Positions 9,133-14,349 of a stretch of DNA of 35,028 nucleotides are shown piece by piece. Under the pieces are notes generated by a model. It had not been told where the DNA came from and did not search any database. It saw only the letters and a list, made by a program, of their open reading frames with translations. Within the stretch, counting starts at the first letter, position 1, and each line of letters opens with the position of its first letter. The stretch is from Micrococcales bacterium (GTDB lineage Bacteria > Actinomycetota > Actinomycetes > Actinomycetales > Dermatophilaceae): NCBI GenBank assembly GCA_014763705.1, contig JACXUW010000003.1, positions 1 to 35,028 of the forward strand, written 5' to 3'. The position numbers were made by a program, and so were the translations under genes.

Positions 9133-9479
9133 GGCCGGCGCTGGTCCGCGTCCGCGGCCGGTCGATGCTGCCGACCTACCGGGACGGCGACGTCCTCCTC
9201 GTGCTGCGCGGCGCTCGTCCGAGGCCGGGCCGCGCACACGTCGTGCGCCTGCCCCCGGACTCCTCCGGTCACCCCCGCCCCCTGTCGGTCAAACGGGTCA
9301 CCGGGCCCGACCCGGACGACCCCGGACGCTGGTGGGTGGACTCCGACAACCCCGCAGAGGGGGTCACCTCGTTCGACGTCGGCTCCCTCGCGGACGACGA
9401 CGTCGTGGCGGTGGTGGCGGGATTGCTGTGGCGGCGCTGGGGTAGGTTGAAGAGGACCGCACGTCCCCGCACAGAGTAG
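9129..9479 (+). CDS. sodX: nickel-type superoxide dismutase maturation protease (S26 family)
   Basis: GTG start at 9129, [28 protein letters not shown]...[19 protein letters not shown]26 Ser motif (GRSMLPT) and KRV Lys region, directly upstream of sodN. Confidence 0.88.
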
Positions 9480-9488
9480 GAGTGACAC

Positions 9489-9884
9489 ATGCTGTCCCTG
9501 TTCCGCATCACCGAGGTCTCGGCCCACTGCGACCTCCCGTGCGGCGTCTACGACCCCGCCCAGGCCCGCATCGAGGCCGAGTCGGTCAAGGCGATCATCG
9601 CCAAGGTCGCGGACAACGACGACCCCGACTTCCGGGTCCGCGCGATGATCATCAAGGAGCAGCGCTCCGAGCTGGTCAAGCACCACCTCTGGGTGCTCTG
9701 GACCGACTACTTCAAGCCGCCGCACTTCGAGAAGTACCCGCAGCTGCACACCCTCTTCAACGAGGCGACCAAGCTGGCCGGCGCCGCGGGCACCAAGGGC
9801 GAGTTCGACGCCGGCAAGGCCGACGAGCTGCTCGCCAAGATCGACGAGATCGCGACGATCTTCGCCGAGACCAAGGCGGCCTGA
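9489..9884 (+). CDS. sodN: nickel-containing superoxide dismutase precursor
   Basis: MLSLFRITEVSA|HCDLPCGVYDPAQARIEAESVKAI; the HCDLPCG nickel hook is diagnostic. Confidence 0.98.
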   Translation: MLSLFRITEVSAHCDLPCGVYDPAQARIEAESVKAIIAKVADNDDPDFRVRAMIIKEQRSELVKHHLWVLWTDYFKPPHFEKYPQLHTLFNEATKLAGAAGTKGEFDAGKADELLAKIDEIATIFAETKAA

Positions 9885-9998: not shown

Positions 9999-11153
9999 TC
10001 AGAGCCCGGGGACGGTGACGACGTAGACCTCGCCGTTGCCCTCGAGGCGGGCCGGCCCCTCCGTGTGCGGCAGGAACGCCGACTCGGCGTCGCCGAGCTC
10101 GAGGGCTCCGTGGGCCGAGGCGACGCGCACCGACCCCCGGAGGCAGAAGACGATCCGGGGTCCGACCTCGCCGGGCAGCTCGCGGCCGGGAACCACCCGG
10201 TGGAGCAGGAAGCGGTCCGAGGCGCTCGGGTAGACCTCGATGCCGTCGGCCAGCGGCTCCGGCCGGCCGGCGATGCCGTCGGCGGCGGGATCGACGATCC
10301 GGAGCAGCTCGGGGACGTTGACCTCCTTCGAGGTCAGCCCGGCGCGCACGACGTTGTCGGAGTTGGCGAGCACCTCGATGCCCAGCCCGTGGACGTAGGA
10401 GTGCAGCACCCCGGCCGCGACGTCGATGTACTCCCCCGGTCGCAGCACCCGGTGGTGCATGAGCAGCAGGACGACGAGGCCGATGTCGTCCGGGTGCTGC
10501 TCGGCGACCTGGACGACGGCCGCGGCCGCGGTGCCGAGCTCGTCGGGGTCCTCGGCGAGGCGCAGGCAGGCGGCGACCACCTCGCGGGTGAGCGACGGCA
10601 CCTCCACCGGTGGGGTCTCGAGGACGGCCCGCAGGACGGCGTGGGTGGGGTCCGGCGCTCCCCGGCCGGCGGCGACGGCCCGCCCGAAGCCCGGCACGTG
10701 GAGCCGGTCCGCGAGGTGCTCGACCTCCTCCGGGTCGCGCATCCCGACGAAGACCTCGAACGGGGAGACGGCGAGGAGCAGCTCGGGCTTGGCGGAGTCG
10801 TCGACGTAGACCGTGTCGCCGGTCAGCGCGCGCAGCTCGCGGGCCTGCTCGGCGCTCGGGTGGACCTGGATCGAGATGGCCCGGCCCGGTGCGAGCACCT
10901 TGAGGAGGAACGGCAGCCGTTCGCCGTGCCGGTCGACGCACGCGTCGCCCAGCTCGCGACGGGGGTCCGCGGCGACGAGGGCGGCGAGGTCGGGGGCGCC
11001 GGGCCGACCGGTGCCGGACGGGCCGCTCTCGTGGGCGCCCATCCACAGCTCCGACTCGGGCAGCGCCGTGGGGATGGGCAGCCCGCGCAGGCTCGCGATG
11101 GCCACGTGCGAGCCCCAGGCGTCGTTGAAGACGACGGCGTCCAGGCGGTCCAC
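9999..11153 (-). CDS. manA: mannose-6-phosphate isomerase, class I
   Basis: VDRLDAVVFNDAWGSHVAIASLRGLPIPTALPESELWMGAHESGPS...ISIQVHPSAEQA...KPELLLAVSPFEVFVG; type I PMI motifs. GTG start is a best guess. Confidence 0.9.
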   Translation of the reverse strand: MDRLDAVVFNDAWGSHVAIASLRGLPIPTALPESELWMGAHESGPSGTGRPGAPDLAALVAADPRRELGDACVDRHGERLPFLLKVLAPGRAISIQVHPSAEQARELRALTGDTVYVDDSAKPELLLAVSPFEVFVGMRDPEEVEHLADRLHVPGFGRAVAAGRGAPDPTHAVLRAVLETPPVEVPSLTREVVAACLRLAEDPDELGTAAAAVVQVAEQHPDDIGLVVLLLMHHRVLRPGEYIDVAAGVLHSYVHGLGIEVLANSDNVVRAGLTSKEVNVPELLRIVDPAADGIAGRPEPLADGIEVYPSASDRFLLHRVVPGRELPGEVGPRIVFCLRGSVRVASAHGALELGDAESAFLPHTEGPARLEGNGEVYVVTVPGL

Positions 11154-11191: not shown

Positions 11192-12517
11192 CTATCGGGC
11201 GACGAGCGGGCGGTCCCCGACCCGCCCGACCGAGCCGTCCTCGACGACGCGGGTCAGCGCGTCGACGACGTCGGGGTCGTACTCGTAGCCGAGCCCGAGG
11301 TGGATGCGCTCCATGGCCGCCGAGACCCGCCCCGGGTCCGACGTACCCCCGGAGAGGTCGTCGAAGGCGTTGGCGCACTTGATGATGCGGGCGGCCATCG
11401 GCACCTCCTCGCCGAGCTCACGGACCATCCGGTAGGGCGTGGTCTGGCCCTCGACGTACGCCGCGACGTCGTCGAAGATCTCCGCCCGCCGGATGATCCG
11501 GCCCCCCTCCTGCGCGATGGCGCGCTGGTCGGCGGGGGCGGCGAGCACGGTCGCACCGTCCGGGATCGGGTCGAGCAGCGAGATCTGGCCGAGGTCGTGC
11601 AGGAGCGCCGCGTACTCGAGGTCGCGCAGGGCCCGCTCCCCGAGGCCCAGCACGCGGCCCACCCGCACCGAGAGCTGGGCCACCCGCTCCGCGTGGTGCT
11701 CGGGGGTGTAGCCACCGTGCTCGGTGAGGTGGGAGAGCGTGGCGATGAGCTGGCGATTGGTCTCGCGGTTGCGGATGTACTGGCGCACGGCCGTGTAGGC
11801 CAGGGCGAGCGGGACCAGCGCGACCGGGAGCGAGAGCAGCCCGAGCACGGGCGCGAGGAGGGCGACCATCGGGCCGGTGACGAGGACGGCCAGGGTGAGT
11901 GGCGCCGCCTCGCCCACCTCGTCGCGGACCGCCGCCGACCACGGGGTCTGCTGGCGCTCGGCCCGCAGGGCGGCGACGAGGACGAGCTCGGTGACCAGAC
12001 CGACCGCCGCGGCCAGGCCCATCCCGAGGACCACGACGCCGGGGGACGCCGAGGGAAGTCCCTGCAGCTCCCAGAGGGTCGGGCTGCCCCAGTCACGGGC
12101 GATGACCGCGGCGACCGAGACACCGACGACCCGGGCGGCGAGCTCCGGGGTGCCGGTGGCCCGGTGGCGGCTGCGGCGCGCGGCGGCGGCGAGCACGAGC
12201 CCGAAGGTGACGACGAGCACGACGAGGCCGGAGTCGATGTCGAGCGTCGGTTCGCCCGCGATCTGGCCCAGGAAGACGGCGCTCATCGCGGACGCCGAGG
12301 ACAGGGGCGCCGTCTCGCGGCCACTCGGCATCCGGATCCGGGCCAGCTCGCCGACCGCGACGAAGCCGACGACGACGAGCAGCGTGTGGCCGTGGGTCGC
12401 GAGCAGGGTGGGCAGGTCACCGCCCGAGGTGAGCAGACCGCGCAGCACCGAGAGCGCCCCGACGGCGAGGACGGCCCCGGCGGCGAGGCGTCCCGGACGG
12501 CGCAGGATCGGGGTCAC
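11192..12517 (-). CDS. membrane protein with C-terminal HD (phosphohydrolase-like) domain
   Basis: Multiple hydrophobic segments, then HHAERVAQLSVRVGRVLGLGERALRDLEYAALLHDLGQISL...ARIIKCANAFDDL (H...HD...D pattern). Confidence 0.85.
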   Translation of the reverse strand: MTPILRRPGRLAAGAVLAVGALSVLRGLLTSGGDLPTLLATHGHTLLVVVGFVAVGELARIRMPSGRETAPLSSASAMSAVFLGQIAGEPTLDIDSGLVVLVVTFGLVLAAAARRSRHRATGTPELAARVVGVSVAAVIARDWGSPTLWELQGLPSASPGVVVLGMGLAAAVGLVTELVLVAALRAERQQTPWSAAVRDEVGEAAPLTLAVLVTGPMVALLAPVLGLLSLPVALVPLALAYTAVRQYIRNRETNRQLIATLSHLTEHGGYTPEHHAERVAQLSVRVGRVLGLGERALRDLEYAALLHDLGQISLLDPIPDGATVLAAPADQRAIAQEGGRIIRRAEIFDDVAAYVEGQTTPYRMVRELGEEVPMAARIIKCANAFDDLSGGTSDPGRVSAAMERIHLGLGYEYDPDVVDALTRVVEDGSVGRVGDRPLVAR

Positions 12518-13770
12518 GACCGCGAGCCTCCCTCGAACTGGCGGGCCAGCGCGTGGTCGAGGGCCCGGAGGAGCTCGGGGTCGCCCACCGCCCCGGCGAC
12601 GACCTCGCGCGCCTGGGTTGGCGCGAGCACCGGCCCCGAGGGCGAGCCCACCGTCGTCAGGACGTCGTAGGTGTCGGCGAGCCCGACGATGCGCGCGGGC
12701 AGCGACAGCCCGCCGGAGGGTTCAAGGCCGCCCCGGTGGCGCCGGATGGGGTCGAGCGAGCCGTGGAGGAAGCTCAGGTCGTGGAGGATCGCGGCTCCGC
12801 GCTCGGGGTAGTCGAGGAGGTGGTCGCGGTCGGTGAGGTCGATGGCGCGCGCGACCCGGGTCGGCAGGCTGGTCTGGCCCAGGTCGTGGAGCATCCCCGC
12901 GACCCGGGTGTCGGTGACCTGCTGCGGTCCGAGGCCCAGGTGCTCGGCCATGTGGGCACTGAGCTGCGCGACGCGGGCGCTGTGCCCCCCGAGCCGCGGC
13001 GCCTTCGCCTCCAGCGCGGCGACGAGCACCTCGAGGGCGCGCTGCTGGCCCTCGAGCTCCTCGGCCCGCTGGCGGTAGATCCACTGCGCGACGACGAGCG
13101 GTGCGAGGACGATGGCGGCGGCGACCGGCCCGAGGTTCGCCAGCACCCAGAGCACGATCATGATGAACGCGATGACGCCGTGCGCGACGTACGCGAACCC
13201 GGTGCCCCGGACCACCGCGAGCATCTGGCCGCGCATCGGGATGCCCTCGGCGACCCGCTTGACGCCGGCGAGCGCGACGAGGTTGGCCACCGCCTGCGCG
13301 ACGACGGCGACGAGGAGCGGCACGGCGAGCCCGAGGACGATCTGCGGGACGTCGCGCAGCCGCTCCGGGCTCGTGGTCCCCCCGACGACGATGAAGGCGA
13401 TGCCCCCCACGCACCCGTGCAGCGAGAACTGCGCCGCGTTGAAGACACGCCGCTGCAGCGGTGCGTGCTTGCCCTGCGAGATGCCGAGGACGGCGCCGAT
13501 CACGGCGACACCGGCGGGACCGACGATGGCCTGCCCGGCGAGCAGGATGACGCCCGACAGCGAGACCCGCACCTGCCCCTCGACGACGGCGTCCGGGAGC
13601 ACGACGTGGAGGGCGGCGAGGAGGATGAAGACGCCCAGCGCCGCGAACTGGTCGAGCCCGTACGCGATCTCCGACCAGACCGCCAGACCGACCGCGAGGG
13701 CCGCGACGGCCGTGATGTACACGGCCGTCGCGGCCCCGCGACTCCTGGGCTCCCGGGGCGCTCCCTTCAC
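12514..13770 (-). CDS. membrane protein with C-terminal HD-GYP-like domain
   Basis: N-terminal hydrophobic helices, then GGHSARVAQLSAHMAEHLGLGPQQVTDTRVAGMLHDLGQTSLP...YPERGAAIL...IRRHRGGLEPSGGLSLPARIVGLADTYDVLT; ATGA overlap with the next gene. Confidence 0.87.
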   Translation of the reverse strand: MKGAPREPRSRGAATAVYITAVAALAVGLAVWSEIAYGLDQFAALGVFILLAALHVVLPDAVVEGQVRVSLSGVILLAGQAIVGPAGVAVIGAVLGISQGKHAPLQRRVFNAAQFSLHGCVGGIAFIVVGGTTSPERLRDVPQIVLGLAVPLLVAVVAQAVANLVALAGVKRVAEGIPMRGQMLAVVRGTGFAYVAHGVIAFIMIVLWVLANLGPVAAAIVLAPLVVAQWIYRQRAEELEGQQRALEVLVAALEAKAPRLGGHSARVAQLSAHMAEHLGLGPQQVTDTRVAGMLHDLGQTSLPTRVARAIDLTDRDHLLDYPERGAAILHDLSFLHGSLDPIRRHRGGLEPSGGLSLPARIVGLADTYDVLTTVGSPSGPVLAPTQAREVVAGAVGDPELLRALDHALARQFEGGSRS

Positions 13771-13792
13771 GGACGACGCCCGGGGTCAGCGG

Positions 13793-13927
13793 TCACCAAC
13801 CCCAGCTGGACCAACCCCAGCTGGACGCCTTGAGGTCGACCTGGGCGGCGGAGGCCGGTGCCGTGGCGCCGATGGTGGCGATGGTGGCGAGAAGAGCGGC
13901 AGCGGCGAGAGTACGGAACGTGCGCAT
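13793..13927 (-). CDS. 44-aa secreted peptide with C-terminal tandem SSWGW repeat
   Basis: MRTFRTLAAAALLATIATIGATAPASA|AQVDLKASSWGWSSWGW; clear Sec signal peptide with AxA site, RBS GGAAGG upstream, 22 nt before the HD-domain gene. Confidence 0.75.
   Translation of the reverse strand: MRTFRTLAAAALLATIATIGATAPASAAQVDLKASSWGWSSWGW
13796..13825 (-). repeat. perfect 15-bp tandem duplication encoding SSWGW-SSWGW
   Basis: (TCCAGCTGGGGTTGG)x2 on the minus strand, followed directly by TGA stop. Confidence 0.95.
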
Positions 13928-13995
13928 GATGTGTGTCCTTCCAGAGGGTGAGATGACCCCAGCCCTGGCTCTCCGGGGCGGCCGGGGACGGTCAG

Positions 13996-14024
13996 ATTCT
14001 TTCACGCGAGACGGTGTGCGACAA
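13996..14024 (-). promoter_or_regulatory. candidate housekeeping-type promoter for the peptide/HD operon
   Basis: TTGTCG-N17-AAGAAT on the minus strand, about 60-70 nt upstream of the peptide ATG. Confidence 0.4.
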
Positions 14025-14082: not shown

Positions 14083-14349
14083 TCACCATGAGCAAGCGCG
14101 CCCGCAAGCGTCGCTCGCGCAAGGGCAACAAGGCCAACCACGGCCGCAAGCCCAACGCCTGAGCGACCCGCTGACGACGGCCTTGACCGCCGCGTCGAGG
14201 TCGTGCTCGGCGAGGCACGGCCGGCACTCGGCGAGGTGGGTCGCCACGCGCCTGACCTCCTCGGGGCTCATCTCGCCGTCGAGGTACTCGTAGATGTGGT
14301 GGAGGACCTCGGAACAGTCGCTGTGGCCCTCGTGCTGGGTGCCGCCCAT
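14083..14349 (-). CDS. rsrA: zinc-binding anti-sigma factor of the mycothiol/thiol stress system (RsrA/RshA family), atypical C-terminus
   Basis: [62 protein letters not shown] motif (HxxxCxxC). TGATG overlap with sigR. Confidence 0.85.
   Translation of the reverse strand: MGGTQHEGHSDCSEVLHHIYEYLDGEMSPEEVRRVATHLAECRPCLAEHDLDAAVKAVVSGSLRRWACGRGWPCCPCASDACGRACSW
14088..14162 (+). CDS. 50S ribosomal protein bL37 (actinobacterial small ribosomal protein)
   Basis: 24 aa MSKRARKRRSRKGNKANHGRKPNA, very basic, with conserved KANHG(K/R)xPNA tail; located beside rsrA. Confidence 0.82.
   Translation: MSKRARKRRSRKGNKANHGRKPNA

Follow-up and report, generated by a model that had tools for sequence, protein, structure and literature searches.

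The stretch of DNA analysed here, hereafter the window, spans 35,028 nucleotides and carries on its minus strand a micropeptide gene of 44 aa (13793–13927), two genes encoding membrane HD-domain proteins, and manA. The micropeptide ORF, read from 13927 to 13793 and recognised from the sequence and from its homologues, translates as MRTFRTLAAAALLATIATIGATAPASAAQVDLKASSWGWSSWGW. It starts with an ATG, with GGAAGGAC immediately 5' of it, and encodes a signal-peptide-like leader of the Sec type and the tail ...DLKASSWGWSSWGW. A repeat scan located two copies of a SSWGW core in this tail, at 13811–13825 and 13796–13810 on the minus strand, the latter extending up to the stop codon; both are encoded by the same DNA. 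The gene for HD protein 1, an HdgA-like protein of 418 aa, occupies 12514–13770 on the minus strand, its GTG start at 13770 lying 22 nt after the micropeptide stop. HD protein 2 (11192–12517, minus strand) is an HdgB-like protein of 441 aa, comprising a membrane domain and a strongly degenerate HD domain. Pfam HD_5/HD matches were obtained for the two membrane proteins. The manA gene, with a GTG start at 11153, follows on the same strand after a gap of 38 nt. An earlier, sequence-only reading of this DNA had described the 44-aa ORF with its Sec-type signal peptide and spacing, the two membrane HD-domain proteins and manA, and all of these are borne out. The overlap it reported between the HD genes is also present, but the bases are GTGA and not ATGA, HD protein 2 beginning with GTG.

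Upstream of the micropeptide gene, the motif TTGTCG (14024–14019)-N17-AAGAAT (14001–13996) occupies 13996–14024 on the minus strand. It had been proposed as a promoter. A DNA alignment revealed that the element is kept in six members of the genus, but at the window locus it did not pass a strict sigma-70 consensus scan, so "promoter" stays a putative label. Between the element and the ribosome-binding site, in the presumed 5'UTR of the micropeptide gene (approximately 13964–13982, minus strand), a block CGGCCGCCCCGGAGAGCC is likewise kept in six genus members; a search of this block against Rfam gave no match. The unit is bounded by a divergent gene for the ribosomal protein bL37 (24 aa, 14088–14162, plus strand), recognised by reading the ORF. 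This bL37 gene (MSKRARKRRSRKGNKANHGRKPNA) is located entirely antisense to the 3' end of an ORF encoding an RsrA-type zinc-finger anti-sigma protein, which ends at 14083 on the minus strand.

The micropeptide could be a chance ORF with no function. Its sequence is short and GC-rich, and nothing above cut-off was returned for it from the Pfam and NCBIfam libraries. Against this, a six-frame search of 58 related genomes revealed homologues in five other genomes of the genus, with E-values from 1e-10 to 3.5e-5. As expected from the sequence-only reading, the ORF recurs in related genomes: in all 11 other genus members the orthologue of HD protein 1 is preceded by an ORF of 43–54 aa, and each of these ORFs has a ribosome-binding-site-like sequence and encodes both a signal-peptide-like leader and an aromatic motif at the C-terminus, which argues that the ORF in the window did not arise by chance. 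The C-terminal motifs found in the genus are SFSWGWGN, NSWSYGG, LGWSYGG, YTWQGG (four copies), GLGWGG, LSWNWGK, FSWGG, LGWGYGG, FGWNG, ASWTW and GSWSW.

A wider search for small ORFs with a W motif upstream of HD homologues across Actinobacteria, which the same reading had proposed, was also positive. HdgA-like loci were drawn from the family, class and phylum (n = 152 for the enrichment count), and were scored for a micro-ORF located at most 330 nt upstream with W-x-[W/Y/P] within its last nine residues. Such a micro-ORF was found at 92 of the 152 loci, compared to 5 in antisense and 3.8 expected from dinucleotide shuffles, the 92 positive loci not being independent events because of their common ancestry. 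When any W within the last nine residues was accepted, the count was 118 of 152, compared to 20 in antisense and 30.3 expected from the shuffles. Substitutions at codon positions 1, 2 and 3 numbered 166, 120 and 194 (p = 1.6e-4, pairs picked by HdgA similarity), indicating coding constraint on the micropeptide. Its dN/dS of about 0.39 was obtained from pairs picked by peptide identity and is biased low. With the homologues, the enrichment, the coding signature, the conserved upstream element and the core repeats described below, the probability of a chance ORF is negligible; enrichment and recurrence across families refute it.

W-tailed micro-ORFs are spread over many families of the class and are also present in other classes of Actinomycetota. 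Carriers include Knoellia koreensis, Pedococcus, Phycicoccus, Terrabacter, Intrasporangium, Humibacillus and Actinopolymorpha, in addition to one Jiangellales MAG and one Sporichthyaceae MAG. Identical peptides are encoded at two Humibacillus loci (L053 and L153), and likewise at two loci of Intrasporangium oryzae (L054 and L146), which would put the window's family among the Dermatophilaceae/Intrasporangiaceae. None of 14 hdgA-like genes from a Streptomyces-like genus is preceded by a W-x-[WYP] micro-ORF, and no convincing peptide was found upstream of Streptomyces-like RmdB-type GGDEF-EAL genes. In the window's family an rsrA-type gene is located upstream. No such gene was found upstream in several other families that retain the peptide, and sigR/rsrA was rejected as the driver of the association on these grounds. 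Micro-genes of the class described here tend to escape standard annotation.

HD protein 1 matches Pfam HD_5 (5.3e-13) and gave an AF2 model with a pLDDT of 91. Its C-terminus is HD-GYP-like, with Foldseek matches to DvhD and PA4781. The membrane sensor domain (approximately residues 10–235; 13066–13743, minus strand) is predicted to have an S-component-like fold, its best other Foldseek matches being the ligand-binding ECF S-components RibU (TM 0.63) and ThiT (0.59, both on target), with weak E-values of 0.1–0.7. The likeness is one of predicted membrane fold; here the domain is fused to signalling outputs, and no transport role is suggested. Hydropathy gave no definite membrane topology. In homologues of HdgA the membrane domain is Pfam MASE9 (PF20972), with matches up to 5.6e-16, and the sensor domains of several of the genes paired with a micropeptide score above the Pfam cut-off, whereas the window HdgA is itself below detection and is assigned to MASE9 via its homologues. 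MASE9 is also present in Thermotoga maritima and in one Thermus control genome, and no described ligand of this domain was found in the open-access papers searched.

According to an active-site table, the window HdgA has kept the H, the HD and the late D of the HD-GYP motif set, but has Y for HP and HR for HH, and GYP is absent. From its sequence, the HD site of HdgB is more degenerate than that of HdgA. The full set (H..HD..HP..HH..GYP..D) is intact at the relatives' loci L043, L045, L048, L050 and L060. Nucleotide turnover had been suggested as the output of the system; in the window's genus, where the HD-GYP site is degenerate, c-di-GMP hydrolysis is doubtful. At two further loci of the window's family (L051 and L052), the HD domain of the HdgA-like protein lacks most of its catalytic residues, with membrane domain and micropeptide both kept.

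The sequence-only reading had linked the peptide to HD proteins as such, and this did not hold. The same kind of peptide is found beside MASE9 genes with other outputs: GGDEF-EAL at L219 (...LGAGSKWW), L269 (...GGAGWKW) and L288 (two ORFs, ...GAGTKWMN and ...GAGKKWA), and histidine kinase at L237 (...LGAGSKWA), L247 (...AGAQWRW) and L227 (...AGANWRY). Six of 23 non-HD MASE9 loci have the peptide, compared to 0.35 expected after shuffling, a figure that is indicative only since the tail pattern was chosen after examples had been seen; most MASE9-GGDEF-EAL loci are without such a peptide. The recurrence with GGDEF-EAL and kinase outputs shows that the pairing tracks the MASE9 sensor and not the HD domain, and the HD output was rejected as its driver. 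Compared at the level of sequence, the genomes establish a conserved coding micro-gene that directly precedes MASE9 genes, in their orientation, across Actinomycetota.

Among the closest described arrangements is the HdgA/HdgB pair of Streptomyces, to which the pair in the window corresponds and for which the available part of the report describes HdgA as 6TM-HD-GYP and HdgB as 6TM-degenerate HD-GYP, no developmental phenotype upon deletion, and no named ligand (PMC6205966). In the window, as in that description, two membrane HD-GYP genes are adjacent, the second is degenerate, and an operon is probable. The two differ in that no W-tailed micropeptide was found in Streptomyces-like genomes, and in that the window HdgA is also without HP, HH and GYP.

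In total 126 distinct peptides of 9–57 aa were compared. Examples are MKKIVSAVEQFLQSGANWRW, MSALLVKLAYLAIESAWLVTTVAGWSWW, MLKEKAGRVHAGISWT and MREENWKWG, and elsewhere in the phylum the peptide resembles a signal peptide to which little more than a short tail is attached (MKRIIAFLSGLAAAVLSAGAQARW, MSGIISIARRVLKYITELFLVGGAGVRW, MKARITILLTTLAALLLSGGAHWRW). The last W is followed by 0–2 residues in 106 of the 126, a statistic that describes the set and is not a test, since most of the set had been selected for a W close to the end. Some peptides from elsewhere in the phylum have no W at their end (...GGAGSRMG, ...AGASAKY). The preserved part is an aromatic core at the C-terminus, in most cases W-x-W or else a W near the last residue, and this core is species-specific. 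The leaders are TM- or signal-like in 58 peptides, amphipathic or moderate in 55, and hydrophilic in 13. The term "secreted", used for the peptide in the sequence-only reading, fits the Sec-type form of the window's family, but many relatives are amphipathic, single-helix or leaderless, and with leader types varying in this way export stays putative.

The W core is repeated inside one ORF at ten loci (the window, L037, L045, L049, L063, L132, L133, L144, L148 and L149). The highest number is five copies of GYHNWEPKA at L149, and other repeats include YTWQGG (four copies, L037), AWSWGPQS (three to four copies, L045) and the two SSWGW copies of the window. Copies agree within an ORF and differ between species, exemplified by RGWKWDP at L132 and RGWDWKG at L144, both present twice. 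Furthermore, sister ORFs share one core at L131 (SWSWNPKIP), L166 (GKGGYEWG) and several f62 loci (STVRW), and have similar cores at L164 and L288. The repeated cores look like those of a multi-copy ligand precursor, and neither a cis-acting leader nor a structural subunit in 1:1 ratio would readily account for them. In pheromone precursors of the yeast alpha-factor type the active core is repeated in tandem, and the likeness lies in tandem cores, here presumed to be active, that match within one precursor and diverge from species to species.

This anatomy bears on the proposal that the micropeptide serves MASE9 as a small subunit of the CydX or KdpF type, structural or regulatory, which stays with it in the membrane and does not act as a diffusible signal. 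In support of it, many forms consist of a single hydrophobic helix of 24–35 aa, 58 of the 126 distinct peptides are TM- or signal-like, and the synteny with MASE9 is constant. The duplication of cores, both in tandem and in sister ORFs, and their species-specific drift fit a processed or multi-copy ligand better, and the leaderless forms of 9–16 aa cannot span a membrane, so that we regard such a subunit as unlikely.

A peptide that is very short, close 5' of the receptor gene and with its W codons clustered at the end may also be read as a cis-acting leader ORF without any function in trans, where translation or stalling at W codons or at an arrest motif controls the expression of hdgA. The counted peptides contain between 1 and 7 W, and in homologues W gives way to Y, M or F, which argues against Trp attenuation; in the window there is furthermore no terminator-like site between the peptide gene and hdgA, and a Trp attenuator was rejected. 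A known RNA leader was rejected as well, Rfam returning only a miRNA match below threshold. Since this explanation also leaves the core repeats and the three output classes unaccounted for, we consider it decidedly unlikely.

The W-x-W cores in multi-copy precursors also look like RiPP cores, and a precursor with a W-x-W cross-link, as in darobactin-like peptides, could be imagined with the MASE9 protein providing immunity or regulation. The neighbouring genes scanned by Pfam encode an ABC transporter ATPase, Sod_Ni, a Peptidase_S24-like protein, an alpha/beta hydrolase, SRAP and a zinc-finger protein of the anti-sigma kind; none of these is a RiPP enzyme, whether radical-SAM, P450 or other. 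A RiPP cluster was rejected because a modifying enzyme is absent from these neighbours, and the explanation is highly improbable.

That the peptide is a ligand or regulator of the membrane sensor, as the sequence-only reading had supposed, is now the leading interpretation, since the peptide gene is paired with a sensor gene and this synteny recurs far outside the genus. Specifically, we think it somewhat probable that the MASE9 domain in the neighbouring HdgA has the micropeptide as its cognate ligand or membrane-delivered agonist. On the simplest account, the N-terminal part, whether Sec-type, a single helix or an amphipathic helix, would do no more than bring the peptide to the membrane or carry it across. 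The core at the C-terminus, either released as a short peptide or still tethered, would then bind the S-component-like pocket of MASE9 and alter the signalling helix running to the output domain. Where key catalytic residues of the HD-GYP domain are lost, as in the window's genus, the output would probably be protein-protein signalling via HdgA and HdgB and not c-di-GMP hydrolysis, and in relatives with an intact HD-GYP site it would be c-di-GMP breakdown. When the L035 peptide and HdgA were modelled by AF2 as a read-through chain, the W-S-Y-G-G stretch of the peptide reached a pLDDT only of 50 or above, with lower flanks, a result of marginal confidence. The main difficulty for the ligand mechanism is posed by the leaderless forms: the 13 hydrophilic peptides without an export-like segment, such as MREENWKWG and MNWSGWEWA, are difficult to reconcile with Sec export. 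The absence of the peptide from the Streptomyces-like hdgA-like genes and from most MASE9-GGDEF-EAL genes also counts against this mechanism, as do the weak E-values of the S-component match.

Pairs of a peptide gene and a receptor gene are already known as a kind. A small peptide gene adjoins the receptor gene in AgrD-AgrC and ComC-ComD of Gram-positive bacteria. The window shares with these pairs, and with RRNPP pairs, a peptide gene in conserved synteny with an adjoining gene for a presumed receptor, a trait of peptide pheromones, whereas the receptor here would belong to the MASE9 proteins, with an output through c-di-GMP or a kinase. In the window, neither a processing enzyme nor a dedicated exporter was recognised beside the receptor gene. 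The RRNPP arrangement, a small peptide gene beside its receptor gene, is described in the available part of PMC10075063. No description of this receptor class, peptide family and breadth was found in the open-access literature searched.

Whether the W-core micropeptides are natural MASE9 ligands throughout the phylum, feeding c-di-GMP turnover, a histidine-kinase phosphorelay or a non-catalytic HD partner depending on the output, seems to us an evenly balanced question. The ligands of most c-di-GMP enzyme sensors are not yet known. In a 2022 review MASE1 is counted with the sensory domains for which no purpose is discernible; as quorum signals directly connected with c-di-GMP enzymes the review gives BDSF and AI-2, and no peptide (PMC8846402). 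If the pairing is one of ligand and receptor, the neighbouring micro-gene would name a candidate ligand for each receptor in many actinobacterial genera, and the question of what these sensors bind would become testable with short synthetic peptides. The micropeptides would then be the first peptide ligands of any MASE-type sensor and of c-di-GMP enzymes, their species-specific cores serving as pherotypes, and a phylum in which antibiotic producers abound would gain peptide signalling.

At four loci of family f75 (L184, L190, L194 and L216), the micropeptides encoded upstream of MASE9-HD genes have GGAGSRMG as their end and no W there, which suggests a lineage with a different core. Elsewhere in the window, a nickel superoxide dismutase gene (Pfam Sod_Ni) is found at 9144–9884 on the plus strand, and the Peptidase_S24-like ORF before it probably encodes SodX.
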